From Balneola sp. (GTDB taxonomy: Bacteria > Bacteroidota > Rhodothermia > Balneolales > Balneolaceae), in assembly GCA_002694685.1 (NCBI GenBank), contig NZMW01000010.1:186001-250000 (forward strand): a stretch of DNA of 64,000 bases. Reading direction: 5' to 3'. Numbering within the stretch: the first letter of the stretch is position 1; every line of letters starts with the position of its first letter. Below, piece after piece: positions 2,056 through 19,715 of this stretch. The position numbers were made by a program, and so were the translations under genes. The notes beneath the pieces are model-generated. The model ran no database searches and was not told the DNA's origin. It worked only from the letters and a program-made list of their open reading frames with translations.

Positions 2056-3276
2056 TTATGCCAGCGTTGCAATCTGATTCAGAAGCTCTTGGTTGCTGTC
2101 TGTGTTTTTAAGCACTTTCAACAAGCCAAGCATGGATTCTTTTGGTGATTTCTTCAAAAGATATCTTCTTACCATATTGCGCTCTTCAAGAGAATCGGTA
2201 ATAAACTTATGCTCATTTCGAGTTCCCGAAGATGAGATGTTGATGGCCGGATAGATTCGATCGTTAGCCAACTCTCGATCCAGAACCAGCTCCATATTAC
2301 CCGTTCCTTTGAATTCTTCAAAAATCAGGTCATCCATTCTGGAATTGGTTTCGATCAAGCAAGTCGCGATGATAGTAAGTGAGCCACCGCCTTCAATTTT
2401 TCGGGCTGAACCAAAAATCTTCTTAGGGATTTCAAGGGCACGGATGTCTAAACCACCTGAAAGTGTTCTTCCGCTGTTAGATTGTACGGCGTTGTAGGCA
2501 CGTCCTAAGCGGGTAATAGAATCAATTAAAAGAACGGAATCCTCTCCCATTTCGGCTTTACGCTTAGCATAACCAAGAGCCATCTCCGTAATGCGAATAT
2601 GGCTTTGAGTGTTTTTATCATTAGAAGAAGCAAAAACTTCTGCTTGAGTAGAGCGAATGAAGTCCGTTACCTCTTCCGGTCGTTCATCAACAAGTAATAC
2701 ACTTACATGAATATCATCCGAGTGATTGTCATTAAGTGACTTGGCAATTTTCTTTAGCAGGACTGTTTTACCTGTTCGAGGAGGGGCTACAATCAATGAG
2801 CGCTGCCCTTTACCGATGGGTGCAACTAAATCAACGACCCGCATTTCAACATCATCCGCGTTGAACCCAAGTTTAATCCACTCTACAGGCATAATAGGAG
2901 TTTGTCTTTCAAAGCGACTGGATTTGGTCCAGGCTTCAACAGGCCTTCCATTTACAACATCTACTGAAGCGACGTGTTTATGACCTTTATTATCTTCTTC
3001 AAACTCACCTTCCAAGACAAGTCCAGGGCGCAGGTCTAATTCTTTAACCTCATCCGGCTTCAAAAAAGGGTCCTGTGGCTGATAGGTAAACTCATAATCC
3101 AGCTTTCGGATAAAGCCCCAACCTTTGGAGTTAATTTCTAAAACACCGGCATATCTCCCTGCAATTCCCTGGTTATTTTTCCAGTAAAATTTAGGGATGA
3201 ACACGTTCCCGCTTTTATTATTGTTTCGGTTACGGTTGTTCTTATTACGGTTCTTGTTGTTTTTTCTACGTGCCAT
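2056..3276 (-). CDS. rho: Transcription termination factor Rho
   Basis: Hexameric RNA-dependent ATPase that terminates transcription. The 406-aa product has a very basic, Asn-rich N-terminus (residues 4-21 almost only K, N and R) instead of the helical N-domain of E. coli Rho. An OB-fold RNA-binding region follows at about 35-110. The RecA-like core has Walker A APPRTGKT (164-171), Walker B VLLIDS (248-253), Q-loop LSGGLD (272-277) and the R-loop region near [14 protein letters not shown] (321-334). It appears monocistronic, with its own upstream gap of about 165 bp. N-terminal low-complexity extensions are common in Bacteroidota-related Rho proteins. Confidence 0.97.
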
Positions 3277-9115: not shown

Positions 9116-10621
9116 TTAAGTATTGCTATTAATTTGTCGGTTACTCAGGTCTGCAAGGTGCTTAATTTGCTCTTCATCAACCTGCTCTAACATCTCAGTT
9201 GTGTATCTCCAAAGCCAATTGCCGGATGAGGTGCCCGGGACGTTCATTCGATGAGTGCCATCTAGTCCCATATAGTCTTGAAGTGGGAATATAGCCTGAT
9301 CTGAAACCGAAATCATCCCTAAGCGGATAAACTCCCAATGCATTTTTTCGCCTGATGAACGGGTATATGTGCGAGCCCGATGTTGCTCGGTTTGGCCGGC
9401 TGTATTGTACCACCCAATAGTGGTGTCATTATCGTGAGTGCCGGAATAAACAACGCTGTTTTGAGAATAATTGTGCGGTAAAAAACTGTTTGTTGAGTCT
9501 GAGTCAAAGGCAAACTGTATGATTTTCATACCAGGAAAATTATAGTTATCCCGGAGCTTTTGAACTCCTTCAGTCATAAAGCCGAGGTCTTCAGCTATTA
9601 TAGGTAGCTCGCCACATTTCTCTAAAATGGCATCAAAGAGTTTTTCGCCGGGGCCGTCTACCCACTTTCCTACTTCGGCTGTTTTTTGGTTTGCCTCCAC
9701 TTCCCAGTAAGCATCAAAACCGCGGAAGTGATCAACCCGGATAGCATCACAAGCATTAAACATATGCTTAAAACGATCTACCCACCAAGAAAAGCCATCT
9801 TTTTCGAGCTCATCCCATTTGTATAAAGGGTTTCCCCAAAGCTGTCCGGTTTTACTAAAATAATCAGGTGGAACGCCGGCAACCAGTTGTCGATTTCCTT
9901 GCTCATCAACTTCGAAATATTTTGGGTTTGCCCAAACGTCAGCGCTGTTGTGATCTACAAAAATGGGAATGTCACCAACCACTCGAATGTTGCGATCGTT
10001 GGCATAATTTTTCAGGTCATTCCATTGATTATCAAACTCAAACTGCAACCAGTACTGCAGCTTTATTTCTTCACTGAATTTTTTGCGGTAGCTTTTAAGA
10101 GCTTTAGGCTTTCTTTGTGCCAGATCCGGATCCCAGGTATTCCAAGGTTGTTTATTATAGTGAAGGGAGCATGCCATGAATAGGACATAGTCATCTAGCC
10201 AATGCTCATTGCGTTTTTTAAAAGCTTCAAACGCCTTCTCTTCTTCTTTTGAAATGTTTTCATAAAAGCGATCTGCTGCAAGCTGATAAACGCGGTCCTT
10301 ATTTTGAAAAGAGGAATCGTAATCAGCGGTGACTTTCGAAGGTAATTCTATGCTCTGAATTTCCTTTTCGGTAAGTAACCCTTTTTCATGAAGGATATCG
10401 GGGCTGATTAGGTATACGTTGCCCGCAAAAGCAGAATAACTTGCATAAGGGGAATTCCCGTATCCGGTCGGGGTAAGGGGCAATACTTGCCAAATAGTTT
10501 GATGTGTTCGTTGTAAAAAGTCGATGAATGTGCGGGCTTCATATCCAAAATCTCCCATTCCATATTTTCCGGGAAACGAGGTTGGATGAACTAAACAACC
10601 GCAAGAGCGTGGAAACCTCAT
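9116..10621 (-). CDS. malQ: 4-alpha-glucanotransferase (amylomaltase, GH77)
   Basis: Transfers 1,4-alpha-glucan segments between malto-oligosaccharides, recycling short glucans in glycogen metabolism; cytoplasmic. The 501-aa product has the standard amylomaltase length. It opens with a LVHPTSFPGKYGMGDFG motif and TPTGYGNSPYAS (51-62). The catalytic set is complete: nucleophile Asp297 in RVDHFRG, acid/base Glu344 in IIAEDLG and transition-state Asp397 in SGTHDNDT. Its start codon is seven bases past the glgB stop, so the two are one operon. The glgB-malQ pairing points to glycogen building and remodelling. Confidence 0.96.
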   Translation of the reverse strand: MRFPRSCGCLVHPTSFPGKYGMGDFGYEARTFIDFLQRTHQTIWQVLPLTPTGYGNSPYASYSAFAGNVYLISPDILHEKGLLTEKEIQSIELPSKVTADYDSSFQNKDRVYQLAADRFYENISKEEEKAFEAFKKRNEHWLDDYVLFMACSLHYNKQPWNTWDPDLAQRKPKALKSYRKKFSEEIKLQYWLQFEFDNQWNDLKNYANDRNIRVVGDIPIFVDHNSADVWANPKYFEVDEQGNRQLVAGVPPDYFSKTGQLWGNPLYKWDELEKDGFSWWVDRFKHMFNACDAIRVDHFRGFDAYWEVEANQKTAEVGKWVDGPGEKLFDAILEKCGELPIIAEDLGFMTEGVQKLRDNYNFPGMKIIQFAFDSDSTNSFLPHNYSQNSVVYSGTHDNDTTIGWYNTAGQTEQHRARTYTRSSGEKMHWEFIRLGMISVSDQAIFPLQDYMGLDGTHRMNVPGTSSGNWLWRYTTEMLEQVDEEQIKHLADLSNRQINSNT

Positions 10622-10628
10622 GTATGTA

Positions 10629-12830
10629 TTAACTCTTTGGTTTTAAAATTACGCCAGCCAAAGGCGGTATTGTTATTGAGATATGAGCATCTTGATTATG
10701 CCAATCTCCCCATTCGGCATGAATTTGAGTATCTCCGGCATTGCTGCCACCATAAAATTCAGAGTCACTGTTAACTAAAATTTCATATTCGCCAGCAGCC
10801 GGTACGCCTACCTTATATCCATAATGAACAGTAGGTGTAAAGTTAAGGATCACAACAACAAAATTTTCGGGATCTTTAGCTCTGCGAACAAATGAAATAA
10901 TACAATTGTCGGCATCGCTGATATCAATCCATTCAAAACCGCGCCAGTCAAAATCAGCTTCATGTAAAGCCTTTTCTTTGGCGTTGATGCCATTCAGGTC
11001 TTTGACTAATAGCTTAAGTCCCTGATGCTTTTCCCATTCCAGGAGATGCCAATCTAAGGATCGGTCTTCACTCCACTCTGACCACTGCCCAAATTCACAC
11101 CCCATAAAAAGCAGGTTTTTGCCTGGATGCGTGTACATATATAGGTATAAAAGCCGCAGGTTGGCAAACTTCTGCCAATCGTCGCCGGGCATTTTGGAAA
11201 GCATAGACTGCTTCATGTGCACCACTTCATCGTGAGAAAAAGGGAGCGTAAAGTGTTCAGAAAAAGCGTAAATCAAAGAAAAAGTAAGCTGGTCCTGATG
11301 ATATTTTCTAAAAAGAGGATCTTTCTCAATATAGGTCAGGCTGTCATTCATCCAACCCATATTCCATTTAAAGTCAAAGCCAAGTCCGCCGGTTTCTGTT
11401 GGGCGAGATACTCCGCCCCAGGATGTAGATTCTTCAGCGAAGGTAATTACGCCTGGAAAATGGTGATGAACCGAGTCGTTAAATTTCCGAAGAAAGTCGA
11501 TGGCTTCAATATTTTCCCGGCCACCATATTGATTCGGTACCCACTCTCCTTCTTCCCTTGAGTAATCCAGATAGAGCATAGAGGCAACAGCGTCTACACG
11601 AAGGCCGTCGATGTGAAACTTATCACACCAAAAAATAGCGTTTGAAATGAGGAAGTTCTGAACTTCAGTGCGGCCATAGTTAAAAATGCAGGTTCCCCAA
11701 TCTTTGTGTTCGCCTTTGCGCGGGTCGGCATGTTCGAAAAGGCCGGTGCCATCAAAGCGGCGGAGGCCATGTTCATCTTTTGCAAAATGAGCAGGAACCC
11801 AGTCAACAAGTACTCCGATATCGGCCTGGTGGCATTTATCCACGAAGTACATAAAATCTTCAGGGGTGCCGAAGCGACTTGTGGGCGCATAATAGCCGGT
11901 AATTTGATAGCCCCAAGAAGGGTCATAAGGGTGCTCGGCAATAGGCAGTAACTCAACATGGGTGTAGCCAAGATCTTTGAGGTATGGCACCAACTGATCG
12001 GCTGTTTCGCGGTAATTTAAAAAGCCAGGGTCTTTGTCGGGGTTTCTTTTCCAAGAGCCTAAGTGCATCTCATAAATAGAAATGGGCTGATCGTAGGCTT
12101 GTTTATCCTGTCGTTTTTTCAACCATTCATCATCATTCCATGAATAGTTTTCGATATCAGTAACGATGGAGGCTGTACCCGGGCGCAATTCAGAATAGAA
12201 AGCAAAGGGGTCAGATTTTTTTAGAGGAGGATCTTGTACAGGAGATTTAATTTCAAACTTGTAGTAATCACCTTCTGTTACATGCGGAATGAAAATCTCC
12301 CAAATTCCCTGGTCATGAAATTTACGCATGCGATGTACGCGTCCGTCCCAGCTGTTGAATTCACCAATTACACTTACTCGTGTGGCGCAAGGAGCGGTTA
12401 CTGCAAAATGAGTTCCATCGACACCATCAATGGTGCGCTGGTGGGCGCCCATAAATTCGTAAGCCTGATGATGGTTTCCTTCGCCCCAAAGCTGTAGGTC
12501 AAAATCACTAATCAGGGAATCAAATTGGTAGGCGTCGGACACGGTGAAAAGCTTCCCGTCGTGTGAAGTTACTTCCAGCTCATAGCTAAAGCGATTTTTT
12601 CTGCGTGCAAATACCCGTTCGAAAAGACCATCTTTAGATAGGCGGTCGAGTTCATATTTTTTCTTATCAATGATAACTGATACAGACTTAGCTTCAGGGC
12701 GGAAGGCGCGGAGGACTAATTTTGTCTTCCCATCAATTTCAACGTCATGAAGACCAAGTACAGAAAAGGGATCGCCATGCGAACCGTCTGATATGGCACC
12801 AATAATTTCTTTATTAAGCGTAGAACTCAT
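10629..12830 (-). CDS. glgB: 1,4-alpha-glucan branching enzyme GlgB
   Basis: Makes the alpha-1,6 branches of glycogen (GH13, subfamily 9 type). The 733-aa product is the full two-N-domain form: an extra N1 domain (about 15-115), a CBM48 domain (about 125-225), the catalytic barrel and a C-terminal beta domain. Catalytic residues are Asp413 (GLRVDAVAS), Glu466 (TFAEEST) and Asp534 (PFSHDEVVHMK). It is the promoter-proximal gene of the leftward run and diverges from the LolC/E-like gene across about 100 bp. No glgC or full-length glgA is in the window. Confidence 0.97.
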   Translation of the reverse strand: MSSTLNKEIIGAISDGSHGDPFSVLGLHDVEIDGKTKLVLRAFRPEAKSVSVIIDKKKYELDRLSKDGLFERVFARRKNRFSYELEVTSHDGKLFTVSDAYQFDSLISDFDLQLWGEGNHHQAYEFMGAHQRTIDGVDGTHFAVTAPCATRVSVIGEFNSWDGRVHRMRKFHDQGIWEIFIPHVTEGDYYKFEIKSPVQDPPLKKSDPFAFYSELRPGTASIVTDIENYSWNDDEWLKKRQDKQAYDQPISIYEMHLGSWKRNPDKDPGFLNYRETADQLVPYLKDLGYTHVELLPIAEHPYDPSWGYQITGYYAPTSRFGTPEDFMYFVDKCHQADIGVLVDWVPAHFAKDEHGLRRFDGTGLFEHADPRKGEHKDWGTCIFNYGRTEVQNFLISNAIFWCDKFHIDGLRVDAVASMLYLDYSREEGEWVPNQYGGRENIEAIDFLRKFNDSVHHHFPGVITFAEESTSWGGVSRPTETGGLGFDFKWNMGWMNDSLTYIEKDPLFRKYHQDQLTFSLIYAFSEHFTLPFSHDEVVHMKQSMLSKMPGDDWQKFANLRLLYLYMYTHPGKNLLFMGCEFGQWSEWSEDRSLDWHLLEWEKHQGLKLLVKDLNGINAKEKALHEADFDWRGFEWIDISDADNCIISFVRRAKDPENFVVVILNFTPTVHYGYKVGVPAAGEYEILVNSDSEFYGGSNAGDTQIHAEWGDWHNQDAHISITIPPLAGVILKPKS

Positions 12831-12932
12831 TCCCGTTATTGAATTAGAAAGGGCGCTAAAGATACTAAAACTTTAACAAATCTCCGTCTTCATTTAAAGT
12901 GCTTTCAATTGCTTGATTCTATATTTTGGGGC

Positions 12933-14159
12933 ATGAAGAATTCCGGATTTATTGCACGTCGCTACCTGTTTTCCCGAAAGCACATCTCGCTGATCTCTAC
13001 GTTAACCTTTATTAGTATTACGGGTATAACCATTGGCACAGCTTTGTTAATCGTGGTTTTGTCTGTTTTTAATGGATTCTTTGATGTGATAAAAAGCTTC
13101 CTGCTTTCCTATGATCCGGATGTCAGAATTGAGGCCTCAGGTCAGGCAACCTTCGCACAAAATGAGGCGATTATGGAGCAAATCCGTTCGCTGCCGGAAG
13201 TCAAAGTTATTTCACCTTATGTAGAAGGAAAGGCTCTTTTGGCTATGGAAGGCGTTCAGAATGAGGTGGTTGATGTGAAAGGAATAGAGCGGAATTCTTT
13301 TTTCCAGCTGGTAGATATTGAAGAGAGCATAACAAGCGGAGTCTTTGATATCTCAGTACGCAACCGCACCCCGGGTATCATTGTGCATGACGAACTGAAA
13401 AACAGGCTGCGTTTGAATATTGACGATGACATTGCCTTATTAAGTGCGGCGGGAATGAAAAATGCGCTTACCCAAATTACCGTCCCTCAAACCTTCCGGT
13501 TTGATTTAAGGGGTTCTTATTTCTTACAGCAGGTAGCGGGCGGTCCAAAAGTATTCGTGGATATTGAAGCGGCAAAGAGGTTGTTCAAATCCAGGAATCA
13601 GATTTCTGGAATCGACCTTAAACTGTATGATAATGAAGATGCTGAGAACGTGAAGAAAGAGCTTTCTGGAATATTGGGAGGCGAGTTTAAAATTTCCAGC
13701 TGGTACGATTTACAAAAACCACTGTATGATGTGATGTACCTTGAAAAGTGGGGTTCTTTTGTGATACTGATATTAATAGTGATTGTAGCCGTGCTGAATA
13801 TCATCGGTTCATTAACGATGATTGTGATCCAAAAGCAGCGGGATATTGGAATCCTGATGTCGATGGGATATAGTCAGGCCGGTATTAAATCAATATTCAG
13901 GAAGCAGGGACTTTATATTGGGTTAATTGGGTGTGGAATTGGAGGCGCTTTAGGATTGCTCTTAAGCTGGGCACAAATGAATTTTGGGCTGGTTAAACTC
14001 TCTTCTGCTTTTATAATTGATGCCTATCCGGTAATGATAAGTCCGGTTGATGTGATTATTATTCTGTCAGCGAGCTTAATGCTTTGTTTACTGGCAAGCT
14101 GGTATCCGGCACATCGCGCCTCTCAGGTTCAACCAGCTGATGCAGTTCGGTATGAGTAG
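12933..14159 (+). CDS. LolC/LolE-family ABC transporter permease
   Basis: A 408-aa inner-membrane permease of the FtsX/MacB superfamily. The N-terminal phrase FIARRYLFSRKHISLIS and the first membrane helix (GITIGTALLIVVLSVFNGF) are the LolC/E hallmark. A periplasmic domain of about 220 residues follows, then three helices in the last third. LolCDE releases lipoproteins from the inner membrane to LolA. The ATG at 12933 gives the usual MKNSGFIARR start; a TTG 24 bases upstream is in frame but less likely. LolD is not adjacent. The C-terminus DAVRYE is typical. Confidence 0.9.
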   Translation: MKNSGFIARRYLFSRKHISLISTLTFISITGITIGTALLIVVLSVFNGFFDVIKSFLLSYDPDVRIEASGQATFAQNEAIMEQIRSLPEVKVISPYVEGKALLAMEGVQNEVVDVKGIERNSFFQLVDIEESITSGVFDISVRNRTPGIIVHDELKNRLRLNIDDDIALLSAAGMKNALTQITVPQTFRFDLRGSYFLQQVAGGPKVFVDIEAAKRLFKSRNQISGIDLKLYDNEDAENVKKELSGILGGEFKISSWYDLQKPLYDVMYLEKWGSFVILILIVIVAVLNIIGSLTMIVIQKQRDIGILMSMGYSQAGIKSIFRKQGLYIGLIGCGIGGALGLLLSWAQMNFGLVKLSSAFIIDAYPVMISPVDVIIILSASLMLCLLASWYPAHRASQVQPADAVRYE

Positions 14160-14261: not shown

Positions 14262-15950
14262 CTACTCATTATATACATCAGGGAGGTCGTTTTCGTAGAG
14301 GATGATGTCTCCGCCACGGGCGTGTTTGCGCACCAGCTCGTTAGCTTCGAACAGGGTGTTTACGACTCTGACATTCATGGCGGTGCTGTCAAAGTTTTTG
14401 ATGCCTTCTAAAATTGGCTTGGCTCTCTCCTCTCCCACTAAAACGACTAAGTCCAAATTTGCTTTGCCGATGGCCTCGCCAAATTTTTGATTTTCTTCTT
14501 CCTCAATTTCACCAAGCTCTACCATTCCCGGCGTTATTATAATTCGTTGCCCGGAGTTGAACTGACTCAGGATTTCCACCGCATTCTTTGCTCCCACCGG
14601 ATTCGAATTGAAAGCGTCATCAATCACAAAAAGATCGCCCTGCTTTCTAAGCTCCAGCCGATGCTCGACCGGCTCGATCTTAGCTGCGGCAATCGCCATC
14701 GTTTTTAAACGGATGCCAAAGTGATGCGCCACGCCAACAGCCAGCAAAAGGTTTTGAGCATTATGAGCACCCAGCAATTGGGTGTTAAAACGCTCAGAAT
14801 CTTGATCAACGGAAACATCAAATTCCATTCCTGATGTATCATAAGAGATATTTGATCCTATAATACTTCCATGATTTAATCCAACCAAAATTCGGGTGAT
14901 CTCCTCTCGACCGGCGCCCATCTTTGCCACCCGCTCATCGTCCCCATTTAAAATAGCGACATCGCCGGCAGTCAAATTATCAACGAGCCTGCCTTTTTCG
15001 CGGGCAATGACATCTTGTGAGCCAAACGTCTCCAAATGAGCCACTCCTACATTTGTAACCACAGAAATATCCGGCTTTGCAATATCACAAAGTTCCTGAA
15101 TGTTACCCTCGTATCGAGCGCCCATTTCAAGAATAAGGATTTGGTGGTGTGATTGGAGGTCGTTGTTAATAACTTTGCAAATACCCATTGGCGTATTGTA
15201 GCTGCCCGGAGTTGAACACACATTAAAGCGCTCTTTCAGCAAGTCACGAATCATAAACTTAGTGCTGGTTTTTCCATAGCTGCCGGTAATGGCAATCACT
15301 TTAAGATCCGGCATAGAAGCCAATTTTTTACGGGCCTGCTGCTTGAAACCATACTGGATGTAGAGTTCAATGGGTTTGGTGAGAAGTCCTGAAAGGAGCA
15401 CAAAAAATGGGACAATCATGGTGCCGAACGCCCAGCCAAAAACCAGGATGGTTAGGTCATAATTTTGAAGTCCGGCAAAAAAGTTAGGCAAAGGAAGCTG
15501 AATAAAAGGAATCATTCCAGTAAAACCCAGATAAGTAAACAGTGCCGGAAAGAAAGCACTAAAAAGGACGAAAGGAATCATTAGCCGCATAACCCGAGCC
15601 GTATAAACGAGAGGCTTCTTCACCTTAGCCGGTTTATAGTTTGAGACAGAGCCAAACCAAAAATAACTGAACACAAAAAAGAAAATTGAAAGGGAAGAGT
15701 AAGTGAAGGTTTCTAAAAACCAATCACTGAAAAGAATAAAAATGAAGATAAAGACATTGAGGATGGCAATGTTTGCCGGGATAACTTTCTCATCCCAATG
15801 GCCTTTCATCCACTGCCAGAACTCATTGTTCTTATAGCCTACCTGCTGATAGGTGTGCACAAAAAAACGCATGCGATACCAGGTATGGCGCAACATAATG
15901 AGGCAAAAAAGGATAGCTCCAACATCGAGGAGAAGATGATACCAGTTCAA
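14262..15950 (-). CDS. MurF-like Mur ligase fused to an N-terminal multi-pass membrane domain
   Basis: A 562-aa protein. Residues 1-200 hold about five to six hydrophobic helices (5-22, 60-80, 85-102, 122-142, 165-190). From about 215 there is a Mur-ligase ATPase with P-loop ITGSYGKTSTK (GSYGKT 223-228), VCSTPGSYNTPMG, the ILILEMGARYEGNI metal/nucleotide segment, a middle domain with LLGAHNAQN, and a C-terminal domain with RLELRK and DDAFNSNPVGAK. Those are MurF (UDP-MurNAc-tripeptide:D-Ala-D-Ala ligase) signatures. Ordinary MurF lacks a membrane domain and has an N-terminal UDP-binding domain not seen here. The start is TTG (no in-frame ATG before residue 19). Confidence 0.85.
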   Translation of the reverse strand: MNWYHLLLDVGAILFCLIMLRHTWYRMRFFVHTYQQVGYKNNEFWQWMKGHWDEKVIPANIAILNVFIFIFILFSDWFLETFTYSSLSIFFFVFSYFWFGSVSNYKPAKVKKPLVYTARVMRLMIPFVLFSAFFPALFTYLGFTGMIPFIQLPLPNFFAGLQNYDLTILVFGWAFGTMIVPFFVLLSGLLTKPIELYIQYGFKQQARKKLASMPDLKVIAITGSYGKTSTKFMIRDLLKERFNVCSTPGSYNTPMGICKVINNDLQSHHQILILEMGARYEGNIQELCDIAKPDISVVTNVGVAHLETFGSQDVIAREKGRLVDNLTAGDVAILNGDDERVAKMGAGREEITRILVGLNHGSIIGSNISYDTSGMEFDVSVDQDSERFNTQLLGAHNAQNLLLAVGVAHHFGIRLKTMAIAAAKIEPVEHRLELRKQGDLFVIDDAFNSNPVGAKNAVEILSQFNSGQRIIITPGMVELGEIEEEENQKFGEAIGKANLDLVVLVGEERAKPILEGIKNFDSTAMNVRVVNTLFEANELVRKHARGGDIILYENDLPDVYNE

Positions 15951-16099
15951 TATATTTGGTTTAGTTTAATCTTACAGATGATATGTATTCACAAGGTTAA
16001 AAGGAGGTTAACAAAAGAAACCCTGCTCGAATTTGGTTGATAACCCTCCTATATTCACCGCCACTTAATAAAATTGTTTCAATCAACGCAGCCAAATAT

Positions 16100-17104
16100 A
16101 TGAAATTAATTATCCCAATGGCCGGACGAGGAACACGAGTTCGTCCACATTCGCACACCGTACCTAAACCCCTTTTACCCGTAGCGGGAACCATGATTGT
16201 AGAGCGCATTGTGGAGACCTTTAACCGCACGCTCGATCGTGATATCAGTGAAATTGTGTATATCCTCGGTCCTGATTTTGGGGAAGACATCAAGCAGCCA
16301 TTGCGTGAAATGAGTAAGCGACATAATGCAGAAGCCATTTTTGAAGTGCAGGCCGAAGCGTTAGGGACGGCACATGCAGTAGCTTGTGCGAGTGATCACC
16401 TAGACGGTGAGGTCATTATTGCTTTTGCGGACACCATTTTTGACAGTGAAGAACCTTTTGAATTAGGCGATGCCGATAGCGTTATCTGGTTGAAGAAAGT
16501 GGAAGATCCATCCCGCTTTGGAGTGGCTGTTTATGAAGGTGACACCATCACCGGTTTTGTAGAGAAGCCAAAAGAATTTATTTCAGACTTAGCCATTATC
16601 GGGGTGTACTACTTCAAGAGCGGTAATGCCCTGAAGGAGAAAATTGAGAAAGTTATTAATGATGATATGAGAGGTCCGGGTGGAGAATACTTCCTGACTG
16701 CGGCTTTAGATATGATGATTAAAGAAGGCAAAGTTTTCAAAACGGCAACCGTTGACGAATGGCTGGATTGCGGAACCCTTCTCGCGTGGCTGGAAACTAC
16801 CGGACTCATCACCGAGAAAGAATTTGATGGAGTTGACGAGAGCAAATATCCGGGATCAACTATTATTCCGCCCGTATTTATTGGCGAAGGTGTAGTAATT
16901 GAGAACAGTACAGTAGGCCCTAAAGTCAGCATTGAGGCCAAAACAGTGATCAAGAACTCAAAAGTTGAAAACACTATCATTCGTGACAATGCTACTTTAG
17001 AGGATGTGGAAACTGAAGGATCAACTATTGGAGCGCACACCCATCTTAAAAGCGTGAAAGGTAAAGTGGATGTAGGAGATCATAGTGTGTTGGATATGGG
17101 GTGA
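16100..17104 (+). CDS. Sugar-phosphate nucleotidyltransferase with hexapeptide repeat tail
   Basis: A 334-aa cytoplasmic NDP-sugar pyrophosphorylase. The N-terminus IIPMAGRGTRVRPHSHT..KPLLPVAG is the nucleotide-binding signature of the RmlA/GlmU/GalU fold. GVAVYEGD, GFVEKPKE and the GGEYFLTAALD segment are later active-site landmarks, and VDEWLDCGT is typical of dTDP-/UDP-glucose-type family members. The last 90 residues have Ile/Val hexapeptide periodicity (VVIENS, VSIEAK, TVIKNS) of a left-handed beta-helix. The ATG at 16100 puts the motif at the N-terminus; an in-frame ATG at 16037 would add 21 non-homologous residues. The exact sugar cannot be told. Confidence 0.88.
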   Translation: MKLIIPMAGRGTRVRPHSHTVPKPLLPVAGTMIVERIVETFNRTLDRDISEIVYILGPDFGEDIKQPLREMSKRHNAEAIFEVQAEALGTAHAVACASDHLDGEVIIAFADTIFDSEEPFELGDADSVIWLKKVEDPSRFGVAVYEGDTITGFVEKPKEFISDLAIIGVYYFKSGNALKEKIEKVINDDMRGPGGEYFLTAALDMMIKEGKVFKTATVDEWLDCGTLLAWLETTGLITEKEFDGVDESKYPGSTIIPPVFIGEGVVIENSTVGPKVSIEAKTVIKNSKVENTIIRDNATLEDVETEGSTIGAHTHLKSVKGKVDVGDHSVLDMG

Positions 17105-19149: not shown

Positions 19150-19434
19150 ATGAATATTTCTATTACCAACGATATCGAACCCCTCTCTGAGTTTAGAAAG
19201 AACTCTGCTGATTTTGTGAAACGCTTAAAAAGGGAAAAGCAACCTATCGTACTTACTCAACATGGGAAGAGTGCTGCGGTTTTAATGGATGTATCAGAAT
19301 ATGAACGGGTCACTAAAAAAATGGAAATGCTGGAAGATTTACTGGAAGCCAAGCAACAGGTGGAACAAGGCAAGACCTATTCTGTAGATGAAGCAAAAAA
19401 TAGAATCGAAAGTCATCTTTCTAAATGGAAGTAA
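19150..19434 (+). CDS. Phd/YefM-family antitoxin
   Basis: 94 aa. The N-terminal half is a Phd/YefM fold: ISITNDIEPLSEFRKNSADF, then IVLTQHGKSAAVLMDVSEYE, the conserved strand-turn that supports dimerisation and DNA binding. The C-terminal half (about 55-94) is charged and helical, the part that wraps the toxin. It should neutralise the adjacent RelE-like toxin and repress the operon through the palindrome just upstream. It overlaps the toxin gene by ten bases, the usual coupling. The pair lies between attC-like sites B and C, and toxin-antitoxin pairs are common stabilising cargo of cassette arrays. Confidence 0.92.
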   Translation: MNISITNDIEPLSEFRKNSADFVKRLKREKQPIVLTQHGKSAAVLMDVSEYERVTKKMEMLEDLLEAKQQVEQGKTYSVDEAKNRIESHLSKWK

Positions 19435-19715
19435 TTTTAACCGATCGATTTTTAACAAGGATTGAAGGGTGTACAGATTATATTGCTTTAGATCATATCC
19501 CTACGGCTATCCAATGGGCCGAAGGTATTTTTGAGTATTGTGAGCAACTGAGAACACAGCCCGATAGTGGAAGAATGGTTCCGGAGTTTAATCGACCAGA
19601 GATAAAGGAACTAATCCATGGTAATTATCGCCTGGTGTACGAGTTAAAACCAAATCGGGTAGACATGCTCACCATCTGGCATACAAGTCAAGTATTACCT
19701 AAAAAAGCATATTAA
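19425..19715 (+). CDS. RelE/ParE-superfamily toxin
   Basis: 96 aa, the standard size for RelE/ParE toxins. Visible features are the N-terminal strand VILTDRFLTRIE, a helical hairpin, and the C-terminal sheet with GRMVPEF, IKELIHGNYRLVYEL and ltiWHTSQVLP. The RxxYRLVYE-like strand and the final His-containing strand resemble ribosome-dependent RelE and gyrase-targeting ParE alike, so the target is uncertain. The toxin frame starts inside the antitoxin gene. Its TAA stop falls within attC-like site C. Confidence 0.9.
   Translation: MEVILTDRFLTRIEGCTDYIALDHIPTAIQWAEGIFEYCEQLRTQPDSGRMVPEFNRPEIKELIHGNYRLVYELKPNRVDMLTIWHTSQVLPKKAY

Follow-up and report, generated by a model that had tools for sequence, protein, structure and literature searches.

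Members of Balneola, Gracilimonas, Rhodothermus and their relatives appear to have exchanged the usual MurF for a membrane-embedded form that lacks the UDP-binding part. Here, we examine one such protein, encoded in a 64,000-nucleotide stretch of a Balneola sp. genome (contig NZMW01000010.1 of assembly GCA_002694685.1; hereafter the window), with whole-genome searches covering the window's phylum. We lean towards the view that this protein is the sole D-Ala-D-Ala adder in its own lineage of the Balneolaceae and across much of the class, that a five-helix membrane domain has taken the place of its UDP domain, and that, by analogy with a known ligase, its substrate would be a lipid-linked tripeptide met after MraY. 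The features on which this view rests, together with the genes around them, are collected in Table 1.

Table 1. Features of the membrane-fused ligase and of its surroundings (positions are those of the window; residues are those of the fused protein)
Feature	Position	Strand	Residues	Remarks
Membrane-fused MurF-like ligase	14262..15950	-	562 aa	Whole ORF; TTG start, stop included
Membrane domain	15336..15950	-	1-205	Five predicted helices, N-out/C-in; no Pfam, NCBIfam or PDB match
Cytoplasmic loop 1	15777..15875	-	26-58	Near-invariant R26, Q35, Y39, W47; RFFLHxFQQxGYK motif
Cytoplasmic loop 2	15579..15653	-	100-124	K111, K112, P113, T117, R119, R122; KKPLxxTxRxxRL motif
Mur ligase middle (ATPase) domain	14727..15305	-	216-408	From Pfam and fold
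P-loop TGSYGKTS	15264..15287	-	222-229	In 82/82 family members
Mur ligase C-terminal domain	14265..14663	-	430-562	Includes DDAFNSNP
Family-specific ENDLPD motif	14277..14294	-	553-558	K(G/A)S at this place in canonical MurF
Divergent sugar-1-phosphate nucleotidyltransferase	16037..17104	+		Probable true start ATG 16100; possibly the lineage's GlmU-type enzyme
LolC/E-like lipoprotein-release permease	12909-14159	+		Beside the glycogen genes
Glycogen genes: glgB and 4-alpha-glucanotransferase	9116-12830	-
Rho termination factor	2056-3276	-		406 aa
Type II toxin-antitoxin pair	19150-19715	+		Phd/YefM antitoxin, then ParE-family toxin

The ORF encodes a single protein: an N-terminal part of about 205 residues, predicted to cross the membrane with five helices, precedes the middle and C-terminal domains of a MurF. 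Pfam recognizes Mur_ligase_M at residues 221-408 (5e-40) and Mur_ligase_C at 430-551 (3e-12), and the UDP-binding Mur N-terminal domain (PF01225) was not found in the protein by the same search. The top NCBIfam model is murF (TIGR01143), with an alignment that begins only at model position 65 and a score of 247.9 bits, below the cut-off of 288.6. AlphaFold2 gave a confident model of the whole protein (mean pLDDT 91.4, pTM 0.81), largely helical over residues 3-211, and a fold search of the PDB returned MurF for all top ten matches (1gg4 at an rmsd of 2.6 Å). A preliminary description, made from the DNA letters alone, had read the first 200 or so residues as membrane helices standing in place of the UDP-binding domain, ahead of a MurF-type ATPase with intact P-loop and DDAFNSNP motifs; hydropathy, charge pattern and structure prediction agree with the membrane part, the Pfam result with the replacement, and both motifs are present. 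The ‘NNP’ motif that it also listed is not seen, the conserved motif at that place being YNTPMG.

That an unrelated membrane gene was joined to murF by an assembly or annotation error might be suspected from the unusual architecture and the TTG start. Of 38 genomes related at the level of genus, family or order, however, 35 carry the fused form, its identity being 48-87% with the membrane part included, and the TTG start is kept in all 14 relatives checked; since architecture and start are shared in this way, the ORF is not a mis-called gene pair. The same open-frame fusion recurs in dozens of independent genomes from many families, ruling out read-through as well, and it is carried by cultured strains (Gracilimonas amylolytica, Fodinibius roseus and Salinivenus lutea), leaving the error practically no chance and disposing of the mis-called upstream gene that the preliminary description had raised against itself. 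A promoter and terminator scan performed no better than chance, and an Rfam search gave no match.

The topology of the membrane domain was read from several signals. In a plain hydropathy scan, four hydrophobic stretches are prominent, and positive charge is concentrated in the loops at residues 26-58, 100-124 and 191-215, with charge-poor segments between them. Together with the structural model, these patterns fit five membrane passes, which would place the N-terminus outside and the ligase inside the cell. Modelled alone, the domain folds with high confidence (pLDDT 95.4, pTM 0.88), and Foldseek found nothing like it in the PDB (best E-value 2.1); no family in Pfam, NCBIfam or the PDB sequences matched convincingly either. 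Mpo1-like, BacA and other families were set aside, their E-values ranging from 1e-4 to 0.1 in only one to seven of 72 members. A search for a stand-alone copy in 12 relative genomes yielded none that was convincing and otherwise only chance-level matches, the domain occurring only in the fusion.

Conservation within this domain is uneven. Across 82 fused proteins, the near-invariant residues are those of the two cytoplasmic loops (Table 1) together with P181, P193 and E195, with Y4 and A206 conserved at the 95% level. Near-invariant positions lie mostly on the cytoplasmic side, and the helices and the outer loop vary freely; judged from the alignment, such a distribution points to a functional site rather than a mere anchor. 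In the ligase part, DDAFN(S/A)NP is found in 81 of the 82 proteins, and ENDLPD in every one of them, in a place where canonical MurF carries K(G/A)S (20 of 20, versus none of the 82).

No other protein in the genome presents itself for the MurF role. The assembly (3.95 Mb, 99.7% complete) encodes five proteins with a Mur_ligase_M domain: MurE, the fused protein, MurC, MurD and FolC, the last a 417-aa protein assigned by its sequence and its position beside a pabC-like gene. Its dcw cluster, with gene names assigned from sequence reading and search results, runs rsmH, ftsI, murE, mraY, murD, ftsW, murG, murC, ftsQ, ftsA, ftsZ, and the check for a standard murF in this cluster, which the preliminary description had proposed, found none between murE and mraY. 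The inventory, the cluster and an order-wide search together rule out a hidden canonical murF. A UDP-binding domain split off to another gene was likewise rejected, PF01225 exceeding its cut-off in this genome only in MurC and MurE. MraY and MurG are both present, and MraY looks ordinary by eye.

At the level of the order, canonical MurF above its curated cut-off is found in none of the 38 genomes, and 37 of them encode Ddl, the enzyme that makes D-Ala-D-Ala. Three genomes (G017, G033 and G036) have neither form of MurF, even at a loose threshold; their assemblies are split into 290-380 contigs, and the absence is likely an assembly gap. Two of them, G033 and G036, belong to one genus (g16), and the fused form is present in sister genomes. 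Of 297 genomes sampled across the phylum, 61 encode the fusion, every one in the same class, and class members outside the order divide into 20 with the fused form only and 12 with the canonical form only, none having both. Because no other Mur ligase is available for the step, Ddl is present and the two forms replace each other in this either/or manner, the fused protein is very probably the housekeeping D-Ala-D-Ala-adding enzyme rather than an extra ligase. From gene content, we infer that it fills the single slot for this activity in each genome. The preliminary description had counted a genome with no other murF as a refutation, because the protein would then be the housekeeping enzyme; such is the genome, though the protein's odd architecture gains in interest thereby.

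The lineages that carry the fusion are labelled Balneolota or Rhodothermota, or are metagenome-assembled genomes labelled Bacteroidetes or simply bacterium, and the named genera among them are Gracilimonas, Balneola, Fodinibius, Rhodohalobacter, Salinivenus and Rhodothermus; by these relatives, the window comes from a Gracilimonas-like member of the Balneolaceae. A maximum-likelihood tree built from the ligase domains places the 25 fused proteins included in a single group (support 100). This group joins canonical MurFs from its own class with a support of 92 that is not conclusive, a branching consistent with one replacement of the domain inside the class. Canonical MurF was found in seven genomes from other classes of the phylum, and five of these have the gene between murE and mraY. 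The 12 class members with canonical MurF (L080-L091; families f7, f13, f15 and f16) showed neither murE nor mraY beside it. The gene may have left the dcw cluster before the fusion arose. Plasmid and viral contigs searched for relatives gave canonical or other Mur ligases only, or nothing, and a Staphylococcus simulans ‘Mur ligase family protein’ was set aside for its ordinary Mur-like N-terminus.

Among known enzymes, canonical MurF (TIGR01143, COG0770; PDB 1gg4, 4qf5, 4cvk) is the closest, sharing the middle and C-terminal domains, the P-loop, the DDxxN motif, the fold and, apparently, the metabolic slot. The fused protein differs from it in having five membrane helices where the UDP-binding N-domain would be and ENDLPD in place of K(G/A)S, in scoring below the NCBIfam cut-off, and in having its gene away from the dcw cluster. 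MurT, of the MurT/GatD lipid II amidotransferase, is likewise a Mur ligase without a UDP-binding N-domain, and its substrate is lipid-linked. MurT, however, starts with a short flexible segment, contains a zinc ribbon, pairs with GatD and amidates D-Glu, whereas the fused protein combines a membrane domain with an ordinary Mur C-domain and is of MurF type in sequence; no GatD gene adjoins the fused gene, its immediate neighbours being the LolC/E-like permease and the nucleotidyltransferase. Cyanophycin synthetase (TIGR02068, PRK14016) shares the Mur ligase-like ATPase domain as a weak match, but Pfam detects no ATP-grasp domain in the fused protein and the architectures differ. Both comparisons had been suggested in the preliminary description, and both fall far short of the model cut-offs (30.3 bits against 800 for the MurT model NF045635, and 30 bits against 850 for cyanophycin synthetase). 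MurF-like proteins with N-terminal membrane segments may also occur in candidate phyla bacteria and in some Bacillota, with a similar ‘QLKEY...RF’ membrane motif and an ‘NDLPDNY’ C-terminus. In the open-licence literature searched, no paper on a membrane-embedded MurF was found.

The N-domain of canonical MurF binds UDP. At the boundary between N-domain and middle domain, where MurE and MurF hold the pyrophosphate of the UDP substrate, the fused protein has a membrane domain that carries conserved basic residues; in lipid II, the pyrophosphate position may mark the point at which the molecule exits the membrane (PMC6113224). MurT, which lacks the same N-domain and whose structure is described in two papers, amidates lipid I and lipid II and not UDP precursors (PMC6085368); it has been argued that MurT has no need of a UDP-binding domain, which would probably collide with the membrane (PMC6113224). 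Because the UDP domain is lost, the membrane domain in its place has conserved basic residues and MurT offers a parallel, we infer a lipid-linked substrate, the first of the two alternatives (a membrane-bound substrate or a non-peptidoglycan ligase) that the preliminary description had left standing.

In the mechanism that we propose, the cytoplasmic face of the membrane domain, with its invariant Arg, Lys, Gln and Tyr residues, would bind a lipid-linked precursor by its pyrophosphate and sugar; this precursor would be lipid I or lipid II carrying MurNAc-L-Ala-D-Glu-mDAP. The membrane domain would offer the stem-peptide end to the Mur ATPase domain for activation with ATP and ligation to the D-Ala-D-Ala made by Ddl. 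MraY would thus load the tripeptide first and MurF act after it, the reverse of the textbook order. We give an even chance to the proposition that this reversal holds in a large part of the class, with UDP-MurNAc-tripeptide as the last soluble precursor, MraY converting it to lipid I-tripeptide, and the membrane-embedded MurF then adding D-Ala-D-Ala.

The main competing explanation keeps the pathway order unchanged: the protein would be a housekeeping MurF still using soluble UDP-MurNAc-tripeptide, and its membrane domain a tether or docking platform channelling product to MraY and MurG. It draws on the same evidence for a sole MurF (inventory, dcw cluster and distribution) and on an ordinary-looking MraY, and much of the muramyl-tripeptide can be held by the middle domain. 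Against it stand the missing UDP-binding domain, with no Mur N-domain elsewhere in the genome except in MurC and MurE, and the invariant polar residues, which a plain tether would be unlikely to keep across a whole class; in MurT, moreover, the same domain loss goes with lipid-linked substrates. We regard this soluble-substrate explanation as unlikely, if deserving of serious attention. It is far less probable that a lipid-linked stem peptide receives something other than plain D-Ala-D-Ala, such as another dipeptide or a depsipeptide. The exchange of K(G/A)S for ENDLPD, uniform on both sides of the comparison, means that the second substrate could differ, but Ddl in nearly all genomes of the order and an FtsI-type transpeptidase in the dcw cluster lead one to expect ordinary D-Ala-D-Ala stems.

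Slighter still is the prospect that the protein is the ligase of another envelope polymer, with MurF activity supplied by something unrecognized, for example a promiscuous MurE. The altered architecture, the distance from the dcw cluster and the sugar nucleotidyltransferase next door all speak for it. The strict either/or distribution with canonical MurF speaks against it, as does the fact that model, fold and tree all give MurF as the best match in a genome with no further Mur ligase, and the neighbour itself may be a substitute for GlmU, that is, peptidoglycan-related. The non-peptidoglycan ligase of the preliminary description consequently finds no support where Ddl, MraY, MurG and a dcw cluster are present and another MurF is absent from both genome and order, and the lipid-linked tripeptide ligase remains the reading we favour.

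The neighbourhood of the gene, far from the dcw cluster, adds some context. Nearly every Balneolales locus has the nucleotidyltransferase divergent from the fused gene, and its orthologues adjoin the fused murF in five genomes in particular (G004, G022, G023, G024 and G025). In ten genomes of the order, a search gave no GlmU above the model cut-off, and in each of the ten the neighbouring nucleotidyltransferase is the best or near-best GlmU-like match; it may be a UDP-GlcNAc pyrophosphorylase, which would tie the locus to peptidoglycan precursor supply. The hint of a cell-envelope pathway that the preliminary description took from this gene is thus plausible. The order of permease, glycogen genes and fused MurF is preserved in many Balneolales loci. 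In Rhodothermales the neighbourhood differs, and in most loci of that order, too, the fused murF has a rho homologue within a few kilobases.

To our knowledge, the addition of D-Ala-D-Ala to a soluble UDP precursor ahead of MraY is treated as universal. Should the membrane MurFs of candidate phyla prove homologous to the fused protein, the architecture would be less novel, and the substrate question would remain. If our proposal is true, these bacteria would offer a MurF target whose substrate pocket differs, another Mur-type ligase besides MurT that acts on lipid-linked precursors, and a membrane fold not described before, which may be one that binds lipid I. With a sole MurF that lacks the UDP domain and carries a conserved membrane domain across much of the class, the order of precursor assembly becomes directly testable in cultured bacteria, among them Gracilimonas, Fodinibius, Salinivenus and their relatives.
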